Part shown: positions 17,251 to 33,077 of the stretch, piece after piece
How the letters are laid out: each line of letters begins with the position of its first letter
Position numbering within the stretch: position 1 is the stretch's first letter
Source: a virus
Strand: one strand, 5' to 3'
Virus record (IMG/VR): IMGVR_UViG_3300031972_000264
Location: 1 to 37,095 of that record
Length of the DNA stretch: 37,095 nt
Made by a program: the position numbers and the translations under genes
The notes under the pieces: model-generated
Told to the model about the DNA's origin: nothing
Seen by the model: only the letters and a program-made list of their open reading frames with translations
Database searches by the model: none

Positions 17251-17279
17251 ATTATACCGGAATAATAAAAGGTTGTCAA
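17251..17279 (-). promoter_or_regulatory. Leftward late promoter, perfect sigma70 consensus
   Basis: On the minus strand TTGACA (17279-17274) is separated by exactly 17 nt from TATAAT (17256-17251). Transcription would start near 17244 and run into the whole late module. No phage RNA polymerase gene is visible in the window, so host RNA polymerase would be the reader. Such a perfect site needs a repressor, DNA topology or competition to delay late expression. Confidence 0.8.
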
Positions 17280-17529: not shown

Positions 17530-17544
17530 TTAACAACTTGTTAA
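17530..17544. repeat. Palindromic repeat, site 1
   Basis: TTAACAACTTGTTAA, a perfect 15-bp dyad around a central C, flanked by AGC and ACT. It lies in the divergent control region and shares its last base with the AACTGAT inverted repeat. One of nine copies. Confidence 0.85.
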
Positions 17545-17724: not shown

Positions 17725-17739
17725 TTAACAACTTGTTAA
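17725..17739. repeat. Palindromic repeat, site 2
   Basis: TTAACAACTTGTTAA, identical core to site 1, followed by GCT. It lies 30 bp upstream of the -35 box of the promoter for the 210-aa gene, a place suited to control of that promoter. Confidence 0.85.
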
Positions 17740-17768
17740 GCTGACCCTAAATTATTTTATTTTTTTGT

Positions 17769-17796
17769 TTGACATATTCTCAAAATAGTTTAATTT
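17769..17796 (+). promoter_or_regulatory. Promoter of the 210-aa gene
   Basis: TTGACA (17769-17774) with TAATTT (17791-17796) 16 nt later. The -35 is perfect, the -10 imperfect; GATAAT at 17797 is an alternative at poor spacing. The transcript leader would contain GTTGAA (17804-17809) and TTCAAC (17824-17829), able to pair before the AGGA of the 210-aa gene. Confidence 0.55.
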
Positions 17797-17852
17797 GATA
17801 ATTGTTGAACGGCAATTAAGCAATTCAACTTTTACTTTTAGGAAAAACTATT

Positions 17853-18485
17853 ATGAAAAATCAATATGTAAACGGCACGTTCTCAAAGTCTTACTTTACG
17901 GCTTCAAATAATTTTGATATCAAATTATCTAAATCTTTATGTTCTAACATTGAGCAATGGTTTTTAGATTGTGATGATATGCAAGCGTTACCAAAAAATG
18001 ATAAAGGTGAATTAGCTAACAAGACTTTAAAAGACACTAATTACGAATTGTTATCTTTACCAAAATATGCGAATGAAAAAGGTAAAATGTTAAAAGTTGA
18101 TAATGAAAAGAAAGATGAAATTAGATTTTTTCTTGCAACTAATACTGAATACAAGGGTAAAAAACAAATTCGTGATTTGTTTGATAATTCAACAGTTTAT
18201 TTAAATAGCTATATGAAAAAGTTTTTTGATTATAAATCACCTGAAATTAAAAAGCCTGAAGAAAAGCCTGAAGATACAACTGTTGAAACTGATACTGTTG
18301 AAACTGTTAAAACGCAAGCTGAAATTCAAGCTGAAACTATGCAACTAGCATACTCAAATCTTTACAATCTTATGGCAAAAAATAATATTACAATGGATAA
18401 GTTTTATGAATTTGCCATGAAATTAGAAATTGATAATAATATTAATATTGAAAAAGTTGAAGAGTTAAAACTAAAAACAGCTTAA
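17853..18485 (+). CDS. Lone early protein, candidate regulator
   Basis: 210 aa, ATG 17853 with AGGA 10 nt upstream. Family not recognised. The N-terminal 120 residues are Lys/Asn-rich and mixed (SKSYFTASNNFDIKLSKSLC; EIRFFLATNTEYKGKKQIRD; STVYLNSYMKKFFDYKSPEI). A Glu/Thr/Pro/Lys linker (KPEEKPEDTTVETDTVETV) follows, then a helical C-terminal part (AYSNLYNLMAKNNITMDKFY; KLEIDNNINIEKVEELKLK). It is transcribed alone: its own promoter, palindromes 45-130 bp upstream of the promoter and overlapping its stop codon, and an intrinsic terminator. Codons are more AT-rich than in the late genes. An autoregulated DNA-binding protein acting at the palindromes is a reasonable but untested idea. Confidence 0.75.
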   Translation: MKNQYVNGTFSKSYFTASNNFDIKLSKSLCSNIEQWFLDCDDMQALPKNDKGELANKTLKDTNYELLSLPKYANEKGKMLKVDNEKKDEIRFFLATNTEYKGKKQIRDLFDNSTVYLNSYMKKFFDYKSPEIKKPEEKPEDTTVETDTVETVKTQAEIQAETMQLAYSNLYNLMAKNNITMDKFYEFAMKLEIDNNINIEKVEELKLKTA

Positions 18486-18496
18486 CAAGTTGTTAA
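18482..18496. repeat. Palindromic repeat, site 3 (overlaps a stop codon)
   Basis: TTAACAAGTTGTTAA. The TAA stop of the 210-aa gene (18483-18485) is part of the palindrome: the gene ends GCT TAA CAA. It is followed 12 bp later by the intrinsic terminator. Confidence 0.85.
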
Positions 18497-18508
18497 ACCA
18501 AACCCCAA

Positions 18509-18544
18509 ACCCTAGTCAATTAATTTTGGCTAGGGTATTTTTTT
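18509..18544 (+). terminator. Intrinsic terminator of the 210-aa gene
   Basis: ACCCTAGTCAA pairs with TTGGCTAGGGT over 11 bp with one G-T pair and a 6-nt loop, followed by ATTTTTTT. It is a textbook Rho-independent terminator 24 nt after the stop codon, isolating this gene from the early operon. Confidence 0.92.
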
Positions 18545-18675
18545 GCCTAGAAAAAAGTATATTTTTTTTAAAAATTACTATCCTACTATCCTAGTGGTGG
18601 TGGTGGTGGTAGTCGTTCTTCCGTGCAAATTACAATGCCTGCAAGCTAATGTTGGTGGTAGGTGGTGGGGGTAGC

Positions 18676-18690
18676 TTCACAAGTTGTTAA
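18676..18690. repeat. Palindromic repeat, site 4
   Basis: TTCACAAGTTGTTAA. One arm has C instead of A at position 3. It lies in the non-coding spacer, so here the C variant is not explained by coding needs. Confidence 0.8.
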
Positions 18691-18693
18691 CTG

Positions 18694-18725
18694 CACCCCA
18701 AACTCAAGTGGTGGTGGTTGGGGTG
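18694..18725. repeat. CACCCCAA/TTGGGGTG inverted repeat
   Basis: Perfect 8-bp arms (18694-18701 and 18718-18725) around a 16-nt GGT-rich loop, starting 4 bp after palindrome site 4 and ending 33 bp before the next promoter. GC-rich arms make a stable stem, with no T-run after it. Confidence 0.5.
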
Positions 18726-18757
18726 TAAGCTGCTGAGGTGTTGGCTAAGTCCTTGAT

Positions 18758-18786
18758 TTGACATAATAAATTACTTGTGTTATAGT
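18758..18786 (+). promoter_or_regulatory. Main early promoter
   Basis: TTGACA (18758-18763), 17-nt spacer, TATAGT (18781-18786). The start would be near 18793, ahead of palindrome site 5 and the first early gene. The block from the -10 onward (TATAGTATATACATAAT) closely matches the promoter at 19851-19879. Confidence 0.75.
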
Positions 18787-18825: not shown

Positions 18826-18840
18826 TTAACAAGTTGTTAA
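18826..18840. repeat. Palindromic repeat, site 5
   Basis: TTAACAAGTTGTTAA, perfect dyad, in the leader of the early transcript: about 33 nt after the predicted start and 5 nt before the AAGGAG of the 68-aa gene. The position could block elongation (stoperator-like) or initiation of translation. Confidence 0.85.
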
Positions 18841-18856: not shown

Positions 18857-19063
18857 ATGTACTACATAATTAATAATCATACTCAAGAGTATCAGTTTTT
18901 TAGAAACAATATGTTGCAGGATAACCCTCACCCATTTGATACGAGGGAAGATGCACTAGCTAATATAAACAAGTATTTCTATTCTGTTGGTCATTGTGAA
19001 ATGTACTTTAAGCACCTAGTTGACAAATACTTTACTATTAAGTATATTAAACCAAGATTTTAG
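18857..19063 (+). CDS. Small early protein, unknown
   Basis: 68 aa, ATG 18857 with AAGGAG 5 nt upstream. MYYIINNHTQEYQFFRNNML, then PFDTREDALANINKYFYSVG and a basic aromatic end (YFTIKYIKPRF). It looks like a compact soluble alpha/beta mini-protein. First gene after the early promoter, so probably among the first made after infection. Family not recognised. Confidence 0.75.
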   Translation: MYYIINNHTQEYQFFRNNMLQDNPHPFDTREDALANINKYFYSVGHCEMYFKHLVDKYFTIKYIKPRF

Positions 19064-19074
19064 AAGGAGATTAC

Positions 19075-19365
19075 ATGAAGAAAGGTTTTGAGAATGGAAG
19101 TCTAGTTCCTATCAGTCATGGCATACAATCGCATAGTGGTAGTATGCATCTACATGCAGATAGAGAGAGCTTCAAGGATATGTATATTATAGCTAGTCGT
19201 GGGGGTGCATTGAATGATGTAAGCAACCTACGTGAGTATAATAAACAAAAGCAGAAGGAAAAGAACGTCAATGCTCTTAGTAGACTTATTGCTAAGGGTA
19301 AAGAGAGAGCAAGTAAACTAAATTCAGCTTCACAAGTTGTTAAACTGTTCAACAAGGAGAACTAA
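19075..19365 (+). CDS. Small early protein whose 3' end runs through a palindrome
   Basis: 96 aa, ATG 19075 with AAGGAG. The first half is His/Ser-rich (MKKGFENGSLVPISHGIQSH), the second half helical and basic (REYNKQKQKEKNVNALSRLI; AKGKERASKLNSASQVV). Codons GCT TCA CAA GTT GTT (residues 85-89) are palindrome site 6; an A instead of C would have made TAA and ended the protein 11 residues earlier. Family not recognised. Confidence 0.75.
   Translation: MKKGFENGSLVPISHGIQSHSGSMHLHADRESFKDMYIIASRGGALNDVSNLREYNKQKQKEKNVNALSRLIAKGKERASKLNSASQVVKLFNKEN
19329..19343. repeat. Palindromic repeat, site 6 (inside a gene end)
   Basis: TTCACAAGTTGTTAA within the 3' end of the 96-aa gene, in the frame GCT TCA CAA GTT GTT. 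It ends 10 nt before the AAGGAG of the next gene. Confidence 0.85.
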
Positions 19366-19850: not shown

Positions 19851-19879
19851 TTGACAAAGTATAAATCATGTGGTATGGT
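19851..19879 (+). promoter_or_regulatory. Second early promoter
   Basis: TTGACA (19851-19856), 17-nt spacer, TATGGT (19874-19879), 10 nt after the stop of the two-TM gene. The downstream block (TATGGTCTATACATAAT) nearly repeats that of the 18758 promoter, so both belong to one promoter family. Confidence 0.65.
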
Positions 19880-19917: not shown

Positions 19918-20241
19918 TTGCTTATTATAAATTTTGAAGACGTTAAAAAAGGTACTACAATTAAAGGTGGTATCACACCAATTAAGATAGCCTTGACTTT
20001 ATTAAAGTTAAGATATATTGATGGTCATAAGCCTGTTATCTTTAGGAACAAATCTATAATCGAAAAGGGTTGGTTTGTTCGCAAGGGTGATGGTGGTAAA
20101 TCAGGTGAAGCCTTGATTAGATTTAATTGGGGTAATAAGTATTCATCTTTCCATGCCTATAATAGGAATGGTAAGCCTAGAGTAGCACAAAATTGGTACG
20201 TTGCTATCAAGTCTGCTCTAATACAAAAGAAAGTAGCTTAA
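19918..20241 (+). CDS. Small early protein, TTG start
   Basis: 107 aa. The start is TTG at 19918: AGGAG sits 8 nt before it and no ATG or GTG is near. LIINFEDVKKGTTIKGGITP, IKIALTLLKLRYIDGHKPVI, FVRKGDGGKSGEALIRFNWG, and an end with RVAQNWYVAIKSALIQKK. It is basic, beta-rich and compact. The TAA stop is part of palindrome site 7 (GCT TAA CAA). First gene after the second early promoter. Family not recognised. Confidence 0.75.
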   Translation: MLIINFEDVKKGTTIKGGITPIKIALTLLKLRYIDGHKPVIFRNKSIIEKGWFVRKGDGGKSGEALIRFNWGNKYSSFHAYNRNGKPRVAQNWYVAIKSALIQKKVA

Positions 20242-20252
20242 CAACTTGTGAA
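20238..20252. repeat. Palindromic repeat, site 7 (overlaps a stop codon)
   Basis: TTAACAACTTGTGAA. Here the A-to-C type change is in the right arm (TTGTGAA), the mirror image of TTCACAA in sites 4, 6 and 8, as expected for a dimer-binding site. It contains the TAA of the 107-aa gene (20239-20241). Confidence 0.85.
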
Positions 20253-20333: not shown

Positions 20334-20933
20334 ATGTCAGTACAAAATATACTAGCCGTATACAACTTGGCAACAACTGATGAGATCAAAGATGGTGTTA
20401 CATGGTATCGCAGAGCCTATCTTGATTGCAGAAAGATTGCCATCAAACACAAAGTACCTATACATATTGTCGTAGGTGTTGTGTCAGCATTATCACCTAA
20501 CAACAAGTGGGAACGTAACGTAGTCAATGCAGACGAGTTGATTGGTGCATACATAAATGGAGATGGTATTGATAGCATCAAGGTATCAACGTATCACAAG
20601 ATGAAGGAGAAGGCTTGGCATATACTAGGTCAGATGCCTAGAAAAGATGATGTTGCTTTCATTCTTAATGGTCAAAAGATTACCTCGTTCTATCAAAATA
20701 TTATGGGATATGATACGTGTACTGTTGATGGTCATGCTAGGAATATATACTATGCAGAACGTGAAGGCTTGACTACACCTAAAGTAAACGTAGGCAAGAA
20801 AGAATATATTATGTTACAACAAGCCTATGTTGATGCAGGTAAGCAAGTCATAGTGAATGGACAACCCCTAAAAGCCTATGAGATGCAAGCTATAACATGG
20901 GTAGCATGGAGACGTATACATGGAATTAAGTAA
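20334..20933 (+). CDS. Conserved phage protein, DUF7178-like
   Basis: 199 aa from ATG 20334, with GGAG 6 nt before it. The frame is open upstream to 20193, but no good start is there except the puzzling GGAGGAG at 20267. Landmarks are MSVQNILAVYNLATTDEIKD, VVGVVSALSPNNKWERNVVN, KITSFYQNIMGYDTCTVDGH (TVDxHARN) and ITWVAWRR. I recall this ALSPxxxWERN...VTVDxHA family from many phages (DUF7178 by memory). The layout faintly recalls HhH DNA glycosylases, but no catalytic proof is visible. Its end overlaps the next gene by 14 nt. Confidence 0.75.
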   Translation: MSVQNILAVYNLATTDEIKDGVTWYRRAYLDCRKIAIKHKVPIHIVVGVVSALSPNNKWERNVVNADELIGAYINGDGIDSIKVSTYHKMKEKAWHILGQMPRKDDVAFILNGQKITSFYQNIMGYDTCTVDGHARNIYYAEREGLTTPKVNVGKKEYIMLQQAYVDAGKQVIVNGQPLKAYEMQAITWVAWRRIHGIK

Positions 20934-21219
20934 CGTATCCTTAAATAGATTAGTACCTATCTATCTTATGAGTTCTTTCTTATACTATGAGTGTGATAAG
21001 AATGTATTAGAAGATGAGCAGTTTGACTATCTATGTAAAAAACTATATGATAATTGGGATAAGGTAGAGCATATGCACAAACACTTAATAGACAAGGATA
21101 ACTTGTTAGCAGGTAGTGGATATGGTATAGAATATACTAGCATGATTAGAGGTGGAGCAATCAGTTGGTATGAGCAAGAAACAGCTTCACAACTTGTTAA
21201 ACCAAATCAGGGAGATTAA
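20920..21219 (+). CDS. Small early protein whose 3' end runs through a palindrome
   Basis: 99 aa, ATG 20920 inside the end of the previous gene, GGAG 8 nt upstream. SFLYYECDKNVLEDEQFDYL, then CKKLYDNWDKVEHMHKHLID and a Gly-rich part (NLLAGSGYGIEYTSMIRGG). The Y-x-E-x-D...LxDxxFDxL pattern recalls the N-terminal domain of NAD-dependent ligases, but the protein is too short to be one. Residues AlaSerGlnLeuVal near the end are encoded by palindrome site 8, so TCA again replaces a TAA stop. Function unknown. Confidence 0.75.
   Translation: MELSNVSLNRLVPIYLMSSFLYYECDKNVLEDEQFDYLCKKLYDNWDKVEHMHKHLIDKDNLLAGSGYGIEYTSMIRGGAISWYEQETASQLVKPNQGD
21186..21200. repeat. Palindromic repeat, site 8 (inside a gene end)
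   Basis: TTCACAACTTGTTAA, within the 3' end of the 99-aa gene in frame GCT TCA CAA CTT GTT, ending about 8 nt before the AGGGAG of the next gene. Confidence 0.85.
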
Positions 21220-24527: not shown

Positions 24528-24712
24528 ACTTAATAGAACTTGAGAGACATATAAAAAAGCATAAGATTATAGAAAAGTATACACAAGGTCTTCTAGATGC
24601 TTACATAGATGGCACACGAGATGAGGAACAATCCCACCATTACTATAAGCGAGGATATGACGTTGGTTTAGATTTATACTGCAAACTACACGAGGAGACA
24701 GAGAATGAATAG
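24524..24712 (+). CDS. Small phage protein, unknown
   Basis: 62 aa, ATGA overlap with the hydrolase. MNLIELERHIKKHKIIEKYT, QGLLDAYIDGTRDEEQSHHY, then YKRGYDVGLDLYCKLHEE. The YxRGYDxGLxLY ending is familiar from marine phage mini-proteins. Helical. Function unknown. Overlaps the next gene by 8 nt. Confidence 0.7.
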   Translation: MNLIELERHIKKHKIIEKYTQGLLDAYIDGTRDEEQSHHYYKRGYDVGLDLYCKLHEETENE

Positions 24713-25211
24713 ATTTATTATAGAACAAACACCACAAGAGATAGCATCATCTCTATGTGACCAACACGTAGTTAAGATGCCACTAGAAGAAGCACAGATG
24801 CTATGTACTGCACTATGGCATCATGCACCTGACTATGCAGAGGAACATAACTTATACAAACCAGTACATCAGAAGCATCCTTGCACACTATGGGCAATGG
24901 ACAATAGGTTGAACTACATATTTGCTTTCCGTTTGTATGACTGTATGTTGAGTGAGTACACTAGAAGATACAATAAAATACATGGTGCAATAAAACATTT
25001 TCAAGCCTTGTGGGAAGGCAAAAAGTTTGTGCCTGATTGGAAGAACTATATGACACCACACCCACAATGTTTTAGTGGGCATGATGATTTGAAGACAGAT
25101 GAGAACTTTCCTATAGAAGCATACAGAAAGTTTTATATAGTTGACAAGTCTAGATTTGCAAGGTATAAGTATACAAATAAACCACAATGGATGACAGGAG
25201 AAGTAGCATGA
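24705..25211 (+). CDS. Widely conserved phage protein, unknown function
   Basis: 168 aa, ATG 24705 behind GAGGAGA. IASSLCDQHVVKMPLEEAQM, LCTALWHHAPDY, LYKPVHQKHPCTLWAMDNRL, NYIFAFRLYDCMLSEYTRRY, then ENFPIEAYRKFYIVDKSRFA and KPQWM. This CDxHVVKMxLExxQML...YKPxHxxHPxxxWA...Y pattern is found in many marine and T4-like phages. Invariant-looking His and Asp suggest an enzyme, but I know no assigned activity. Confidence 0.8.
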   Translation: MNRFIIEQTPQEIASSLCDQHVVKMPLEEAQMLCTALWHHAPDYAEEHNLYKPVHQKHPCTLWAMDNRLNYIFAFRLYDCMLSEYTRRYNKIHGAIKHFQALWEGKKFVPDWKNYMTPHPQCFSGHDDLKTDENFPIEAYRKFYIVDKSRFARYKYTNKPQWMTGEVA

Positions 25212-26515: not shown

Positions 26516-26530
26516 TTAACAAGTTGTTAA
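26516..26530. repeat. Palindromic repeat, site 9
   Basis: TTAACAAGTTGTTAA followed by GCT, 16 nt before the AAGGAG of the DUF932-like gene and more than 5 kb from the other copies. It stands at the border between the small early genes and the recombination/replication module. Confidence 0.85.
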
Positions 26531-27411: not shown

Positions 27412-28305
27412 ATGAAGTTATCAAACTTAATAGATAAGTATTATTTATCCTTTGATTTCAAGAACTTACGTCAAGAAACTAAAGTACAATATCAATACTT
27501 TCTGAGTGTGTTATCTGATACAAAAACGGATAATGCACAAGTTTTAGGCAGTATCAAGATTTCTGATATCACTACTAAAATGGCAAAGGTATCATATGAG
27601 ATGTGGTGTGAAAGAGGTATACACTTAGCTAATCATGTGATGTCTGTTGCAAGGGTTATATATAACTTTGCTATACACATGGAGCATTATCATATTAATC
27701 CTTTCACGAGCATCAAGAGAAAGACACCTGTAGCAAGAAAGGTAGTGTGGACAAAAGAGAATGTCTGCACATTCCTTGATTATGCCTATCAAGACTTTCA
27801 TACAAGAAATATAGGTTTGATTGCACAGATGGCATATGAGTGGTGTCAGAGACTTGGAGATATGCGAGTAATAAAATGGGAGAACCTAGAATTGGATAAA
27901 AATAAAATGCACATAGAACAATCTAAACGTAGGGCAGAAGTGTTTCTACCTATATCAGAGCCACTATGCGAGATGCTTACTCAGCAGAAACAAGACTATG
28001 GGTTTCAAGAGTATGTAGCACCCTGTACAAAGCCTTCTAATGGGGTCTACAAGCCTTATTCTAAACATAGGCTACCTAAACTAGCTAGAGACATAATGAA
28101 TGATGCAGGACTTCCTGTGGAGTTACGTCTGTCTGATCTAAGAAGAACAGGTACAACAGAGATGGTTGATGCAGGTGTTTCTATGGGTAATATTATGGCA
28201 GTCACAGGGCATACTAATCCTCAGAGTGTCAAGCCATATATGAAAAATACACTAGCTAGTGCTAATCTTGCATTAAATTTAAGAAAAAGTTTGACGGATG
28301 TTTAA
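27412..28305 (+). CDS. int: Tyrosine recombinase / integrase
   Basis: 297 aa. N-terminal SAM-like core-binding part (LRQETKVQYQYFLSVLS; HVMSVARVIYNFAIHMEHYH) and a C-terminal catalytic domain: R147 in EWCQRLGDMR, a beta-hairpin Lys in QSKRR, LRLSDLRRTG with R244 (the usual box-II His is Ser241), H267 in VTGHTNPQSV, and nucleophile Y276 in KPYMKNT. It would cut and rejoin DNA through a 3'-phosphotyrosine. No tRNA-like attP was found beside it. The phage may integrate, or may use it to resolve genomes. It begins 1 nt after the DUF932-like gene stop. Confidence 0.9.
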   Translation: MKLSNLIDKYYLSFDFKNLRQETKVQYQYFLSVLSDTKTDNAQVLGSIKISDITTKMAKVSYEMWCERGIHLANHVMSVARVIYNFAIHMEHYHINPFTSIKRKTPVARKVVWTKENVCTFLDYAYQDFHTRNIGLIAQMAYEWCQRLGDMRVIKWENLELDKNKMHIEQSKRRAEVFLPISEPLCEMLTQQKQDYGFQEYVAPCTKPSNGVYKPYSKHRLPKLARDIMNDAGLPVELRLSDLRRTGTTEMVDAGVSMGNIMAVTGHTNPQSVKPYMKNTLASANLALNLRKSLTDV

Positions 28306-30346: not shown

Positions 30347-31068
30347 CAAAATATTTAACGTGTATCAAGTGTGACATAGAGCAACCTGTAACACAGTTTA
30401 TTGCAATGAAATCAGGTGAGATAAAGAGAACCTGTAAGTCATGTAAGAATGGTCACAAGGCTGTAATTAAAAAGTTAAGGAGTGAAAATGAATACCCTAG
30501 TGAAGACTACTGTTGCCCTATATGCGAGAGAGATATAGAGGAAATAGCTAAGTATGGTCAGATGAGAATGAAGAATTGGGTACTAGATCATTGCCATGAA
30601 ACCAATACCTTTAGAGGTTGGATATGCCATCACTGTAATACTGGACTTGGAGCATTTGCTGATGAAACAAGAAGATTAACTAATTCCACAAGGTACTTAG
30701 ATGAACATAGAGCTAAGATAGAGAAAGCAGAAAGTATGTATACTAAGAAAGACATACCTGATCTGATGCAGGAGTTACACCAAGAACAGATTCTTGCTAA
30801 GGAATGTGATCAAAGAAATTATCATAAGCTACAGTACTCTAATTCCTCTCAAAGAGAAGTTAATAGACTTAAAAAACTAATAAAGTTAATTGAAGCAGGT
30901 CTTGATGTAGAAGATTATGAGAGTGGTACTGTATTAGTTAATGGTAAGTTTGTAGTCACACTACTGCATGATAATTGGAGAAATCTGTATAAGAACAGAT
31001 GGTACAGACATAAAGCTGATATACAACACTTCATAGATAATTATGTATTAAAGGAGTATAAACAATGA
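30343..31068 (+). CDS. Recombination endonuclease VII-like resolvase
   Basis: 241 aa. An N-terminal CxxC pair (C7/C10, C31/C34) precedes the endonuclease VII core: CPIC (C58/C61), WVLDHCHETNTFRGWICHHC (D82, H83, H85; C95/C98) followed by N99, matching T4 gp49 zinc Cys and the D-H-H-N active site. The C-terminal half is helical and basic (NRLKKLIKLIEAGLDVEDY; NWRNLYKNRWYRHKADIQHF). It would cut four-way and branched DNA before packaging. Overlaps helicase and polymerase genes by 4 nt each. Confidence 0.9.
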   Translation: MTKYLTCIKCDIEQPVTQFIAMKSGEIKRTCKSCKNGHKAVIKKLRSENEYPSEDYCCPICERDIEEIAKYGQMRMKNWVLDHCHETNTFRGWICHHCNTGLGAFADETRRLTNSTRYLDEHRAKIEKAESMYTKKDIPDLMQELHQEQILAKECDQRNYHKLQYSNSSQREVNRLKKLIKLIEAGLDVEDYESGTVLVNGKFVVTLLHDNWRNLYKNRWYRHKADIQHFIDNYVLKEYKQ

Positions 31069-33077
31069 AATTAACACTAGACGTAGAAAATACAGTCACT
31101 AAGCGAGATGGCAAGATGCACCTTGATCCTTTTGAGCCTACCAACAAATTAGTTATGGTGGGTTGTCTAACGGATACAGGTAAGGAGTATCTATTCAGAG
31201 ATAACTTTGATGGAGTACAAGAACTACTAGATAAAGCTACAATACTTATTGGTCACAATATATCTTACGACCTAATGTGGTTGTGGGAATGTGGGTTCAA
31301 GTATGAAGGTAGTGTGTTTGACACTATGTTAGCAGAGTATGTATTACAGAGAGGTATAAAGAAACCTCTTTCACTAGAAGCATGTGCAGAAAGATATGAC
31401 CTAGATACAAAGAAACAGGACACACTGAAGGAATACTTTAAGAAAGACATGGGAGTTGACGAGATACCACCTGAAGAATTGTCTGAGTATCTTTCAGCAG
31501 ACTTACATGCTACACAGCAACTATCTGATGAACTATACAGAAAACTAAACACTGTAGAATATAGTGGTTTAATGGAAACAGTAGTACTCAGTAATAGTGT
31601 ATCTATAGTATTAGCTAAGATATACTCACGAGGTTTTGCTGTTAATCTAAGTAAGCTAGAAGAAGTTCGTTCTGAGTTTGAGAAAGAAAAGATTGAGACA
31701 GAGAAGAGACTTCGTTTACAAGTATCTAACCTAATGGGTGACACATCTATTAATTTAAATAGTCCTGAGCAAATGTCTTGGGTTATATATAGTCGTAAGC
31801 CTAAAGAAAAAACAACATGGTTGAATCACTTTCATCCTTACATGAATAAGTCAGACTTAGTACGTAAAATAAATGAACATTCAGACATAGTGTATAAAAC
31901 TACAGCAGTTAGATGCTCTCATTGTTATGGAACAGGCAGGCTTAGAAAGATAAAGAAAGATGGTACACCCTATATTAATCAGCCTAAGTGTGATAAATGT
32001 GAGGGTAGTGGTTATATATTTAAACCATCTAATAATGTAGCAGGTTTTAAGTTCAATCCACCAACTGCTAAGTGGGTTACTGCTAATGGTTTTAGTGTTA
32101 ATAAAAATATGTTAGCAATACTACAGAGATCAGCTAGGAATACAAATAGACAGGATGCTTATAACTTCTTAACTGATCTACAAAGAGTATCAGCATTAGA
32201 TACTTACCTGTCCTCTTTTGTAGAGGGTATAAATATATATGTAAAACCTGACAAGAAACTACATGTTAGATTATTACAACACAGAACTTCTACAGGCAGA
32301 TTTAGTGGTGCAGACCCTAATATGCAGAATATGCCTAGAGGTGGTACATTCCCTGTCAAGAGGGTATTTGTATCAAGATGGAAAGGGGGAAAGATACTTG
32401 AAGCTGACTTTGCTCAATTAGAGTTTAGGGCAGCCGCTTTCCTATCACAAGATAAAACAGCAATGAAGGAGATTGAAGATGGATTTGATGTACATGCATA
32501 CACTGCTTCTGTCATTACGGAATCAGGTCAGAAGACTACTAGGCAAGAAGCAAAAGCTCATACCTTTGCACCCCTCTATGGAGCAACAGGATTTGGGAGA
32601 ACGACTGCTGAAGCAAAATATTATGAGCAGTTCACGGAAAAGTACCAAGGTATCAAGCTATGGCACACCAGATTGGCTAAAGAAGCTCTAGATAAACGAA
32701 TGATTACTACACCATCAGGTAGACAGTTTGCTTTCCCTGATGTAGAACGAAGAAGAAACGGCACTGTTAGTCACTTTACACAGATAAAGAATTATCCTGT
32801 ACAGTCATTTGCTACTGCTGATATAGTTCCCTTAGTGCTAATACACATGGAGAACTTGCTATCTACACACAAGTCTTGTATAGTTAATTCTGTGCATGAT
32901 TCTGTAGTAGTTGATATACATCCTGAAGAAGTAGATCAGGTTTTATATATAATTAAGAAACTTAATGGTGATCTGCAAAGTATCATTGAAAGGCAGTTTA
33001 AGATTGAGTTTAATGTGCCATTATTACTTGAAGCAAAAATAGGTGATAATTGGCTTGACACTAAAGATGTTGCGTGA
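31065..33077 (+). CDS. polA: Family-A DNA polymerase with 3'-5' exonuclease and DnaJ-type zinc finger
   Basis: 670 aa. Exonuclease residues D6/E8 (LTLDVENT), N65/D69 (GHNISYDL) and Y142/D146 (YLSADLHAT). Inserted at 284-316 is a DnaJ-type zinc finger: CSHCYGTG and CDKCEGSG. The polymerase part has motif A EADFAQLEFR (D448), motif B RQEAKAHTFAPLYGATG (R493, K497, F501, Y505) and motif C SVHDSVVVD (D612). F501 corresponds to E. coli Phe762. The exonuclease/zinc-finger/polymerase order is the HMO-2011-type signature as I recall it. Replicates the phage genome. AAGGAG start. Confidence 0.97.
   Translation: MKLTLDVENTVTKRDGKMHLDPFEPTNKLVMVGCLTDTGKEYLFRDNFDGVQELLDKATILIGHNISYDLMWLWECGFKYEGSVFDTMLAEYVLQRGIKKPLSLEACAERYDLDTKKQDTLKEYFKKDMGVDEIPPEELSEYLSADLHATQQLSDELYRKLNTVEYSGLMETVVLSNSVSIVLAKIYSRGFAVNLSKLEEVRSEFEKEKIETEKRLRLQVSNLMGDTSINLNSPEQMSWVIYSRKPKEKTTWLNHFHPYMNKSDLVRKINEHSDIVYKTTAVRCSHCYGTGRLRKIKKDGTPYINQPKCDKCEGSGYIFKPSNNVAGFKFNPPTAKWVTANGFSVNKNMLAILQRSARNTNRQDAYNFLTDLQRVSALDTYLSSFVEGINIYVKPDKKLHVRLLQHRTSTGRFSGADPNMQNMPRGGTFPVKRVFVSRWKGGKILEADFAQLEFRAAAFLSQDKTAMKEIEDGFDVHAYTASVITESGQKTTRQEAKAHTFAPLYGATGFGRTTAEAKYYEQFTEKYQGIKLWHTRLAKEALDKRMITTPSGRQFAFPDVERRRNGTVSHFTQIKNYPVQSFATADIVPLVLIHMENLLSTHKSCIVNSVHDSVVVDIHPEEVDQVLYIIKKLNGDLQSIIERQFKIEFNVPLLLEAKIGDNWLDTKDVA

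Follow-up and report, generated by a model that had tools for sequence, protein, structure and literature searches.

A candidate stoperator-like regulator and its dispersed palindromes in the early region of an HMO-2011-type marine phage

What is the role of a small gene that stands where the two transcription directions of a marine phage genome part, and whose product has no match above chance in the sequence libraries searched? The question is raised by the window, the whole 37,095-nucleotide stretch analysed here, a 37-kb viral contig that is not classed as complete. It is part of the genome of a marine phage of the HMO-2011 type that encodes an integrase. Its DNA polymerase (31065-33077) is 64% identical over the full length to that of Puniceispirillum phage HMO-2011, and terminase, portal, capsid, integrase, helicase and C5 methyltransferase genes are recognisable with Pfam and PHROGs. 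Phages of this type reportedly rank with the most abundant ones in the ocean (PMC9038755, PMC6918029). From about 17.1 kb the late genes point leftward; the early and replication genes point rightward from about 17.9 kb. A gene of 210 codons (17853-18485, + strand), the proposed dispersed-operator regulator, is the first of the rightward genes and sits at the divergence point. The tyrosine integrase (27412-28305, + strand; Pfam PF00589, E 2.8e-16; PHROG integrase) supports a temperate lifestyle. A pyrimidine-dimer DNA glycosylase-like gene is found at 24705-25211 (+ strand; Pfam PF03013, E 6e-7).

The first-pass annotation saw in the 210-aa gene an isolated unit with its own promoter, terminator and palindromes, and took it for an autoregulated repressor or a nucleoid-type protein unrelated to recognised families. 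The open reading frame is real, and the lack of recognised relatives is borne out: searches of Pfam, PHROGs, NCBIfam, PADLOC, PDB sequences and INPHARED (tblastn) give nothing above chance, no helix-turn-helix or repressor model of Pfam matches above the cut-off, and there is no significant sequence match to any PDB chain. Structure prediction and remote-homology searching were proposed in the same annotation; the AlphaFold2 model built from the three known sequences was unusable and was discarded (pLDDT 36), and no significant family match emerged. The protein has an acidic linker at about residues 130-150, followed by a C-terminal part that is helical in a low-confidence prediction. Its gene has the lowest G+C content of the 33 ORFs compared (26.4% vs 36.4% for the window), as the remark on AT-rich codons had implied, although its GC3 of 19.0% is low without being the lowest. 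A separate origin, suggested from these codons, would fit the exchange of modules observed between related phages.

The two palindromes noted beside the gene are present, but they do not belong to it alone. The 15-bp dyad TTAACAA-S-TTGTTAA occurs in perfect form upstream at 17725-17739 and again at 18482-18496, where it provides the TAA stop codon of the gene; seven further copies occur elsewhere in the window. The nine sites follow the consensus AGYTTMACAA-S-TTGTKAARCT, with the core TTMACAA-S-TTGTKAA and the half-site AGYTTMACAA; written as a duplex, the site word is AGCTTAACAAGTTGTTAAGCT. Among the 18 half-sites, seven of the ten positions vary hardly or not at all (six are strictly constant, one is the same in 17 of 18). 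The sites are symmetric, and both the S at the centre and the A/C changes are seen in either orientation. Searched de novo for families of palindromes, the window yields five perfect and nine total copies, the best result for any palindrome in 40 dinucleotide-preserving shuffles being two perfect and four total. A palindrome had also been described across the promoter region; beyond a repeat with 6-bp arms, no further notable one is found there.

All nine copies fall between 17.5 and 26.5 kb, among the rightward early genes, and the late and replication genes carry none. The first (TTAACAACTTGTTAA, 17530-17544) lies between the divergent transcription units, the second (17725-17739) 30 bp upstream of a -35-like TTGACA, and the third over the stop codon at 18482-18496. 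The fourth (TTCACAAGTTGTTAA, 18676-18690) is intergenic. The fifth (18826-18840) precedes the ATG at 18857 by 31 bp. The sixth (19329-19343) and the eighth (21186-21200) occupy the 3′ ends of the ORFs 19075-19365 and 20920-21219, respectively, each ahead of the next ribosome-binding site, and the seventh (20238-20252) includes the stop codon of the ORF 19918-20241. The ninth (26516-26530) stands 43 bp before a DUF932-like gene (26559) that is itself 5′ of the integrase gene. An SD-ATG start follows six of the sites at 31-128 bp, and five of them at less than 100 bp (18826, 19329, 20238, 21186 and 26516, at 31-96 bp).

The transcription signals of the region are distributed otherwise. The TTGACA on which the gene's own promoter had been claimed is present (17769-17774, + strand), but it has no acceptable -10 at 16-18 bp, is absent from the promoter-scan hits and reads TTGACT in both close relatives described below; the claimed promoter is thus weak, because it lacks a -10 at normal spacing and its -35 is poorly conserved. 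The strong terminator stands as annotated: an 11-pair stem followed by the T-run ATTTTTTT (18509-18536, + strand), conserved in one of these relatives (L006). Between this terminator and the next promoter, short GGT/GTGG-rich repeats at 18588-18740 are likewise conserved in L006. The promoter scan identifies a TG-extended sigma-70-like promoter with 11 of 12 consensus positions (18758-18786, + strand) for the following early genes, about 40 bp before the fifth palindrome when counted from its -10, and a perfect sigma-70 consensus, 12 of 12 and TTGACA-17-TATAAT, for the leftward genes (17251-17279, - strand). The latter is free of palindromes, the nearest being 250 bp away. Since the good promoters at 18758-18786, 19851-19879 and, leftward, 17279-17251 are all free of overlapping sites, the sites lie mostly in transcribed gene boundaries and not on promoters.

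Two IMG/VR contigs carry the window protein, at 93% (L006) and 84% (L007) identity. All nine sites are kept in L006, and in L007 all three of those that its sequence covers, including the first. The non-coding DNA beside the upstream sites has diverged, in L006 with a deletion of more than 50 bases; the upstream palindromes persist in both despite this divergence, with at most the central base changed. In the second site it is this base alone that differs (C to G, in both contigs).

A third contig, L367, comes from a near relative of the window phage; it has a DUF7178 gene 86% identical to that of the window and carries a different 15-bp S-centred palindrome, GTCGTYA-S-TARCGAC (GTCGTTAGTAACGAC). 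This word occupies the places that match window positions 19329 and, approximately, 20238. It is found at 95, 213, 486 and 1265 of L367 and at 2791 of another contig (L368); the regulator gene of L367 lies beyond the end of the contig. The same places filled with another word are what a change in repressor specificity would leave. A third family, that of L023 and L446-L450, has a first early gene of 199 codons and five to nine copies of TTACCAA-S-TTGTTAA, one of them spanning the stop codon, precisely as the third site of the window does. This gene (L446, 7001-7600, and its counterparts in L447-L450) has only weak matches, to the PADLOC candidate PDC-S02 (E 0.001). Profile comparisons among the window, L023 and CRP families are not significant.

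The same arrangement, with a palindrome of another sequence, is seen in HMO-2011, CRP-1, CRP-345 and about 90 relatives from metagenomes. HMO-2011 carries five copies of AGTCCG-N4-CGGACT, from upstream of gp74 (205 aa) through gp02, and CRP-1 and CRP-345 carry GTCCAAYRTTGGAC around and beyond gp01 (208 and 210 aa). HMO gp74 is homologous to CRP gp01 (blastp 5e-5, together with a profile match). With CRP-1 gp01, CRP-345 gp01 and HMO gp74 as queries, at least 183 relatives are found. Dispersed palindromes accompany the gene in all 69 relatives first examined, usually in 4-8 copies where the flank suffices, and in nearly all of these one copy lies about 230-330 bp upstream. The main branch has a further copy within the stretch of the gene that encodes the linker, and others follow in the next 3 kb. 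The layout is the same in 23 of 25 more divergent loci, the other two (L350 and L358) being short on downstream sequence. The downstream sites lie outside ORFs of at least 100 aa in 199 of 212 cases, vs 59% for random points. Each of the 51 loci whose downstream sequence reaches 7.5 kb or more also encodes an integrase. No prophage with this family was found among 84,980 bacterial and archaeal genomes searched with short conserved patterns for that family alone.

Other members of the phage group lack both components. A tblastn search of the phage collection with CRP-345 gp01 reveals no gp01-like first gene in CRP-2, 603, 207, 3, 212, 738, 235 or HTVC033P, and no comparable dispersed palindrome family is seen in the same eight phages (within the first 14 kb for CRP-212, 738 and 235). 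CRP-3, which is more remote within the group and has no gp01 system, has been shown to integrate in a tRNA gene (PMC6918029). Upstream of gp01 in CRP-603 (L209/L219), three copies of TATGTGATCACAAA lie within about 110 bp, and such clustered lambda-like operators may replace the dispersed system there. L377 (1396-5090), a further early region from these phages, holds six TGTTTCA-N5-TGAAACA-like palindromes.

Weak Pfam matches of 61 members of the gp01 family include no helix-turn-helix or repressor model. The predicted structure (pLDDT 73.6, pTM 0.53) consists of a helical N-terminal domain, a disordered linker and a helical C-terminal part. Foldseek gives no significant match to the PDB, and VIA-align yields weak matches only (best Z 3.9; the LEAFY DNA-binding domain Z 3.4). 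The one good viral match is a 205-aa protein, S4S2E1 (E 2.3e-5), of the same length as HMO-2011 gp74.

It is in this family that protein and palindromes can be seen to change together. The operators read GTCCGA..TCGGAC instead of GTCCAA..TTGGAC in 10 of the 77 loci scored. The switch from A.T to G.C nearly always affects all sites of a genome together and has occurred in about eight lineages; a tree from which the helix columns were left out requires eight changes. Residue 113 changes from T to S along with the switch in seven of eight independent pairs and in none in the opposite sense (sign test p 0.016); three S113 loci are mainly A-type, two of them with mixed sites. A scan of 168 columns is led by 113, 117, 136, 121, 102 and 119. 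Column 136 was rejected as a specificity residue because an operator sits inside that part of the gene, so that the column tracks the switch trivially; the top non-trivial columns are 113, 117 and 121. These are spaced i, i+4 and i+8 and share one face of a predicted helix (112-125) within an otherwise helical domain, the 10-residue mean pLDDT over residues 101-130 being about 63-92 and highest within that helix. The pattern is what a DNA-recognition helix would be expected to produce, and it constitutes strong in-silico evidence that the first-gene product of the CRP-gp01 family reads the palindromes. A similar word, GTCCAAGGTTGGAC, is conserved inside the integrase genes of CRP-1 (6868), CRP-345 (7079) and their relatives. 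It was rejected as an operator and treated as coding because it keeps A.T even in L228, which is otherwise G-type; its conservation probably reflects coding constraint.

Does the window protein belong to this family? Against the CRP-gp01/HMO-gp74 profile it scores E 0.59 with hmmsearch (15-protein set) and P 0.11 at best with hhalign. The best local alignment pairs window residues 15-64 with family residues 39-77, in an order that fits shared ancestry but is not significant. The covariation evidence therefore applies to the window by analogy. What the window shares with the family is its layout: a first rightward early gene of about 200 codons in an HMO-2011-type genome with an integrase, with dispersed palindromes around and downstream of it. 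The role of the window protein therefore rests on position, layout, the sites kept in L006 and L007 and the palindrome of L367. On these grounds we assign the window gene, with moderate confidence, the same role as CRP-gp01, by position and layout and not by family membership.

Regulators acting on many dispersed sites are known from other phages. In the cluster A mycobacteriophages L5 (Gp71) and TipsytheTRex, a small two-part repressor is associated with 20-30 dispersed stoperators, which lie in short intergenic gaps and mostly not at promoters, and site motif and repressor diverge jointly between heteroimmune relatives (PMC9283540, PMC6550527). Many of the window sites, to which binding is putative, similarly lie in short intergenic gaps away from promoters. 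The L5 sites are asymmetric, 13-14 bp long and aligned with the direction of transcription, and a monomer binds them, whereas those of the marine phages are near-perfect palindromes numbering 4-9 per phage. The A3 family profile has no significant sequence match to any PDB chain. In the Bacillus phage SPbeta the master repressor MrpR acts on a repeated element, SPBRE, in many intergenic regions (PMC10516654). One regulator for a repeated dispersed element is likewise what is proposed here, but MrpR is larger and has a tyrosine-recombinase fold, to which the marine proteins of about 200 aa show no significant Foldseek match. A further parallel is offered by HMO-2011 gp74 and CRP-1/CRP-345 gp01, hypothetical proteins of 205-210 aa whose genes are also first early genes with dispersed palindromes, although their palindromes (GTCCRAYRTYGGAC or AGTCCG-N4-CGGACT) differ from those of the window. 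In phage lambda, CI and Cro are phage-encoded dimeric regulators that recognise palindromic operators clustered at two promoters. The window sites, in contrast, extend across 9 kb, and none of the window proteins scanned, a part of the total, is recognised as a Cro-like partner.

The window protein is probably a dimeric early-gene regulator, a repressor for immunity or lysogeny that would use its palindromic sites in the manner of stoperators, a reading we favour while holding it well short of secure. The protein would bind the nine dispersed 15-21-bp palindromes in a sequence-specific manner. Bound beyond the early promoters, where one gene gives way to the next, it would block or dampen rightward early transcription, the damping extending to the approach toward the integrase, and through the sites beside its own gene it would limit its own synthesis. 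Binding, repression and a block of elongation, not of initiation, are our inferences for this protein, as are autoregulation and immunity. Of the two roles first proposed, the autoregulated repressor is thus retained as the best reading, with strong indirect support, by analogy, from gene-palindrome covariation in related phages. The nucleoid-type protein finds no support: the sites are long and specific, there are few of them, and they keep to the boundaries of early genes.

Dispersed specific sites in multiple copies are also typical of centromere and iteron binders, and here they occur in the early region near the replication genes, so the protein might serve partition, replication start or compaction instead of transcription control. 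This is unlikely: the window proteins scanned, part of the total, include no ParA-like partner, the sites, rather than forming a cluster, are distributed over gene boundaries ahead of ribosome-binding sites, and the counterpart genomes have integrases. It is similarly doubtful that another phage gene product or a host regulator binds the palindromes and the 210-aa gene is merely regulated. The window protein has no demonstrable homology to the covarying family, and many other unknown genes lie nearby; on the other hand, the covarying residues of the related family belong to the product of this very position, the sites flank or sit inside this gene in all families examined, and concerted switches between close relatives speak against a host factor.

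Palindromes at gene boundaries might instead work in RNA, as hairpins for processing, attenuation or stability. The CRP-type sites can form stable hairpins (-6.5 to -7.8 kcal/mol), and paired switches from A.T to G.C preserve RNA pairing as well. The window sites form only weak hairpins (-0.9 to -4.5 kcal/mol), the unpaired A/C change in four of the nine fits the half-site consensus TTMACAA while breaking the stem, the site at 17530 lies between divergent promoters, and the switches follow one face of a protein helix, all of which makes an RNA function very improbable. Chance repeats beside an ordinary gene can be practically dismissed even in a window of 64% A+T, where short palindromes are common, since none of the 40 shuffles comes near the observed copies and the sites are fully conserved in L006 vs diverged or deleted neighbouring non-coding sequence.

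The preferred reading, a dispersed-operator repressor, can be extended to the locus as a whole. There is perhaps an even chance that the small, unrelated or far-diverged proteins of this one HMO-2011-type locus constitute a new class of immunity regulators, with dispersed operators, palindromic stoperators and a DNA-binding domain not described before, with at least five specificities (operator words TTAACAA, TTACCAA, GTCGTYA, GTCCRA and AGTCCG) and, in one family, a code readable from sequence that links helix residues 113, 117 and 121 to a single operator base pair. The two main papers on HMO-2011-type phages make no mention of a repressor or a palindrome, and many of the phages carry an integrase. 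A dispersed-operator phage regulator is of a known kind, but the protein families, the symmetric sites and the marine-phage setting appear to be new. If the reading is true, a candidate repressor of HMO-2011-type phages is named and its binding sites are given in many genomes, superinfection-immunity groups would become predictable from sequence, and a concrete protein-DNA recognition code would be on offer.
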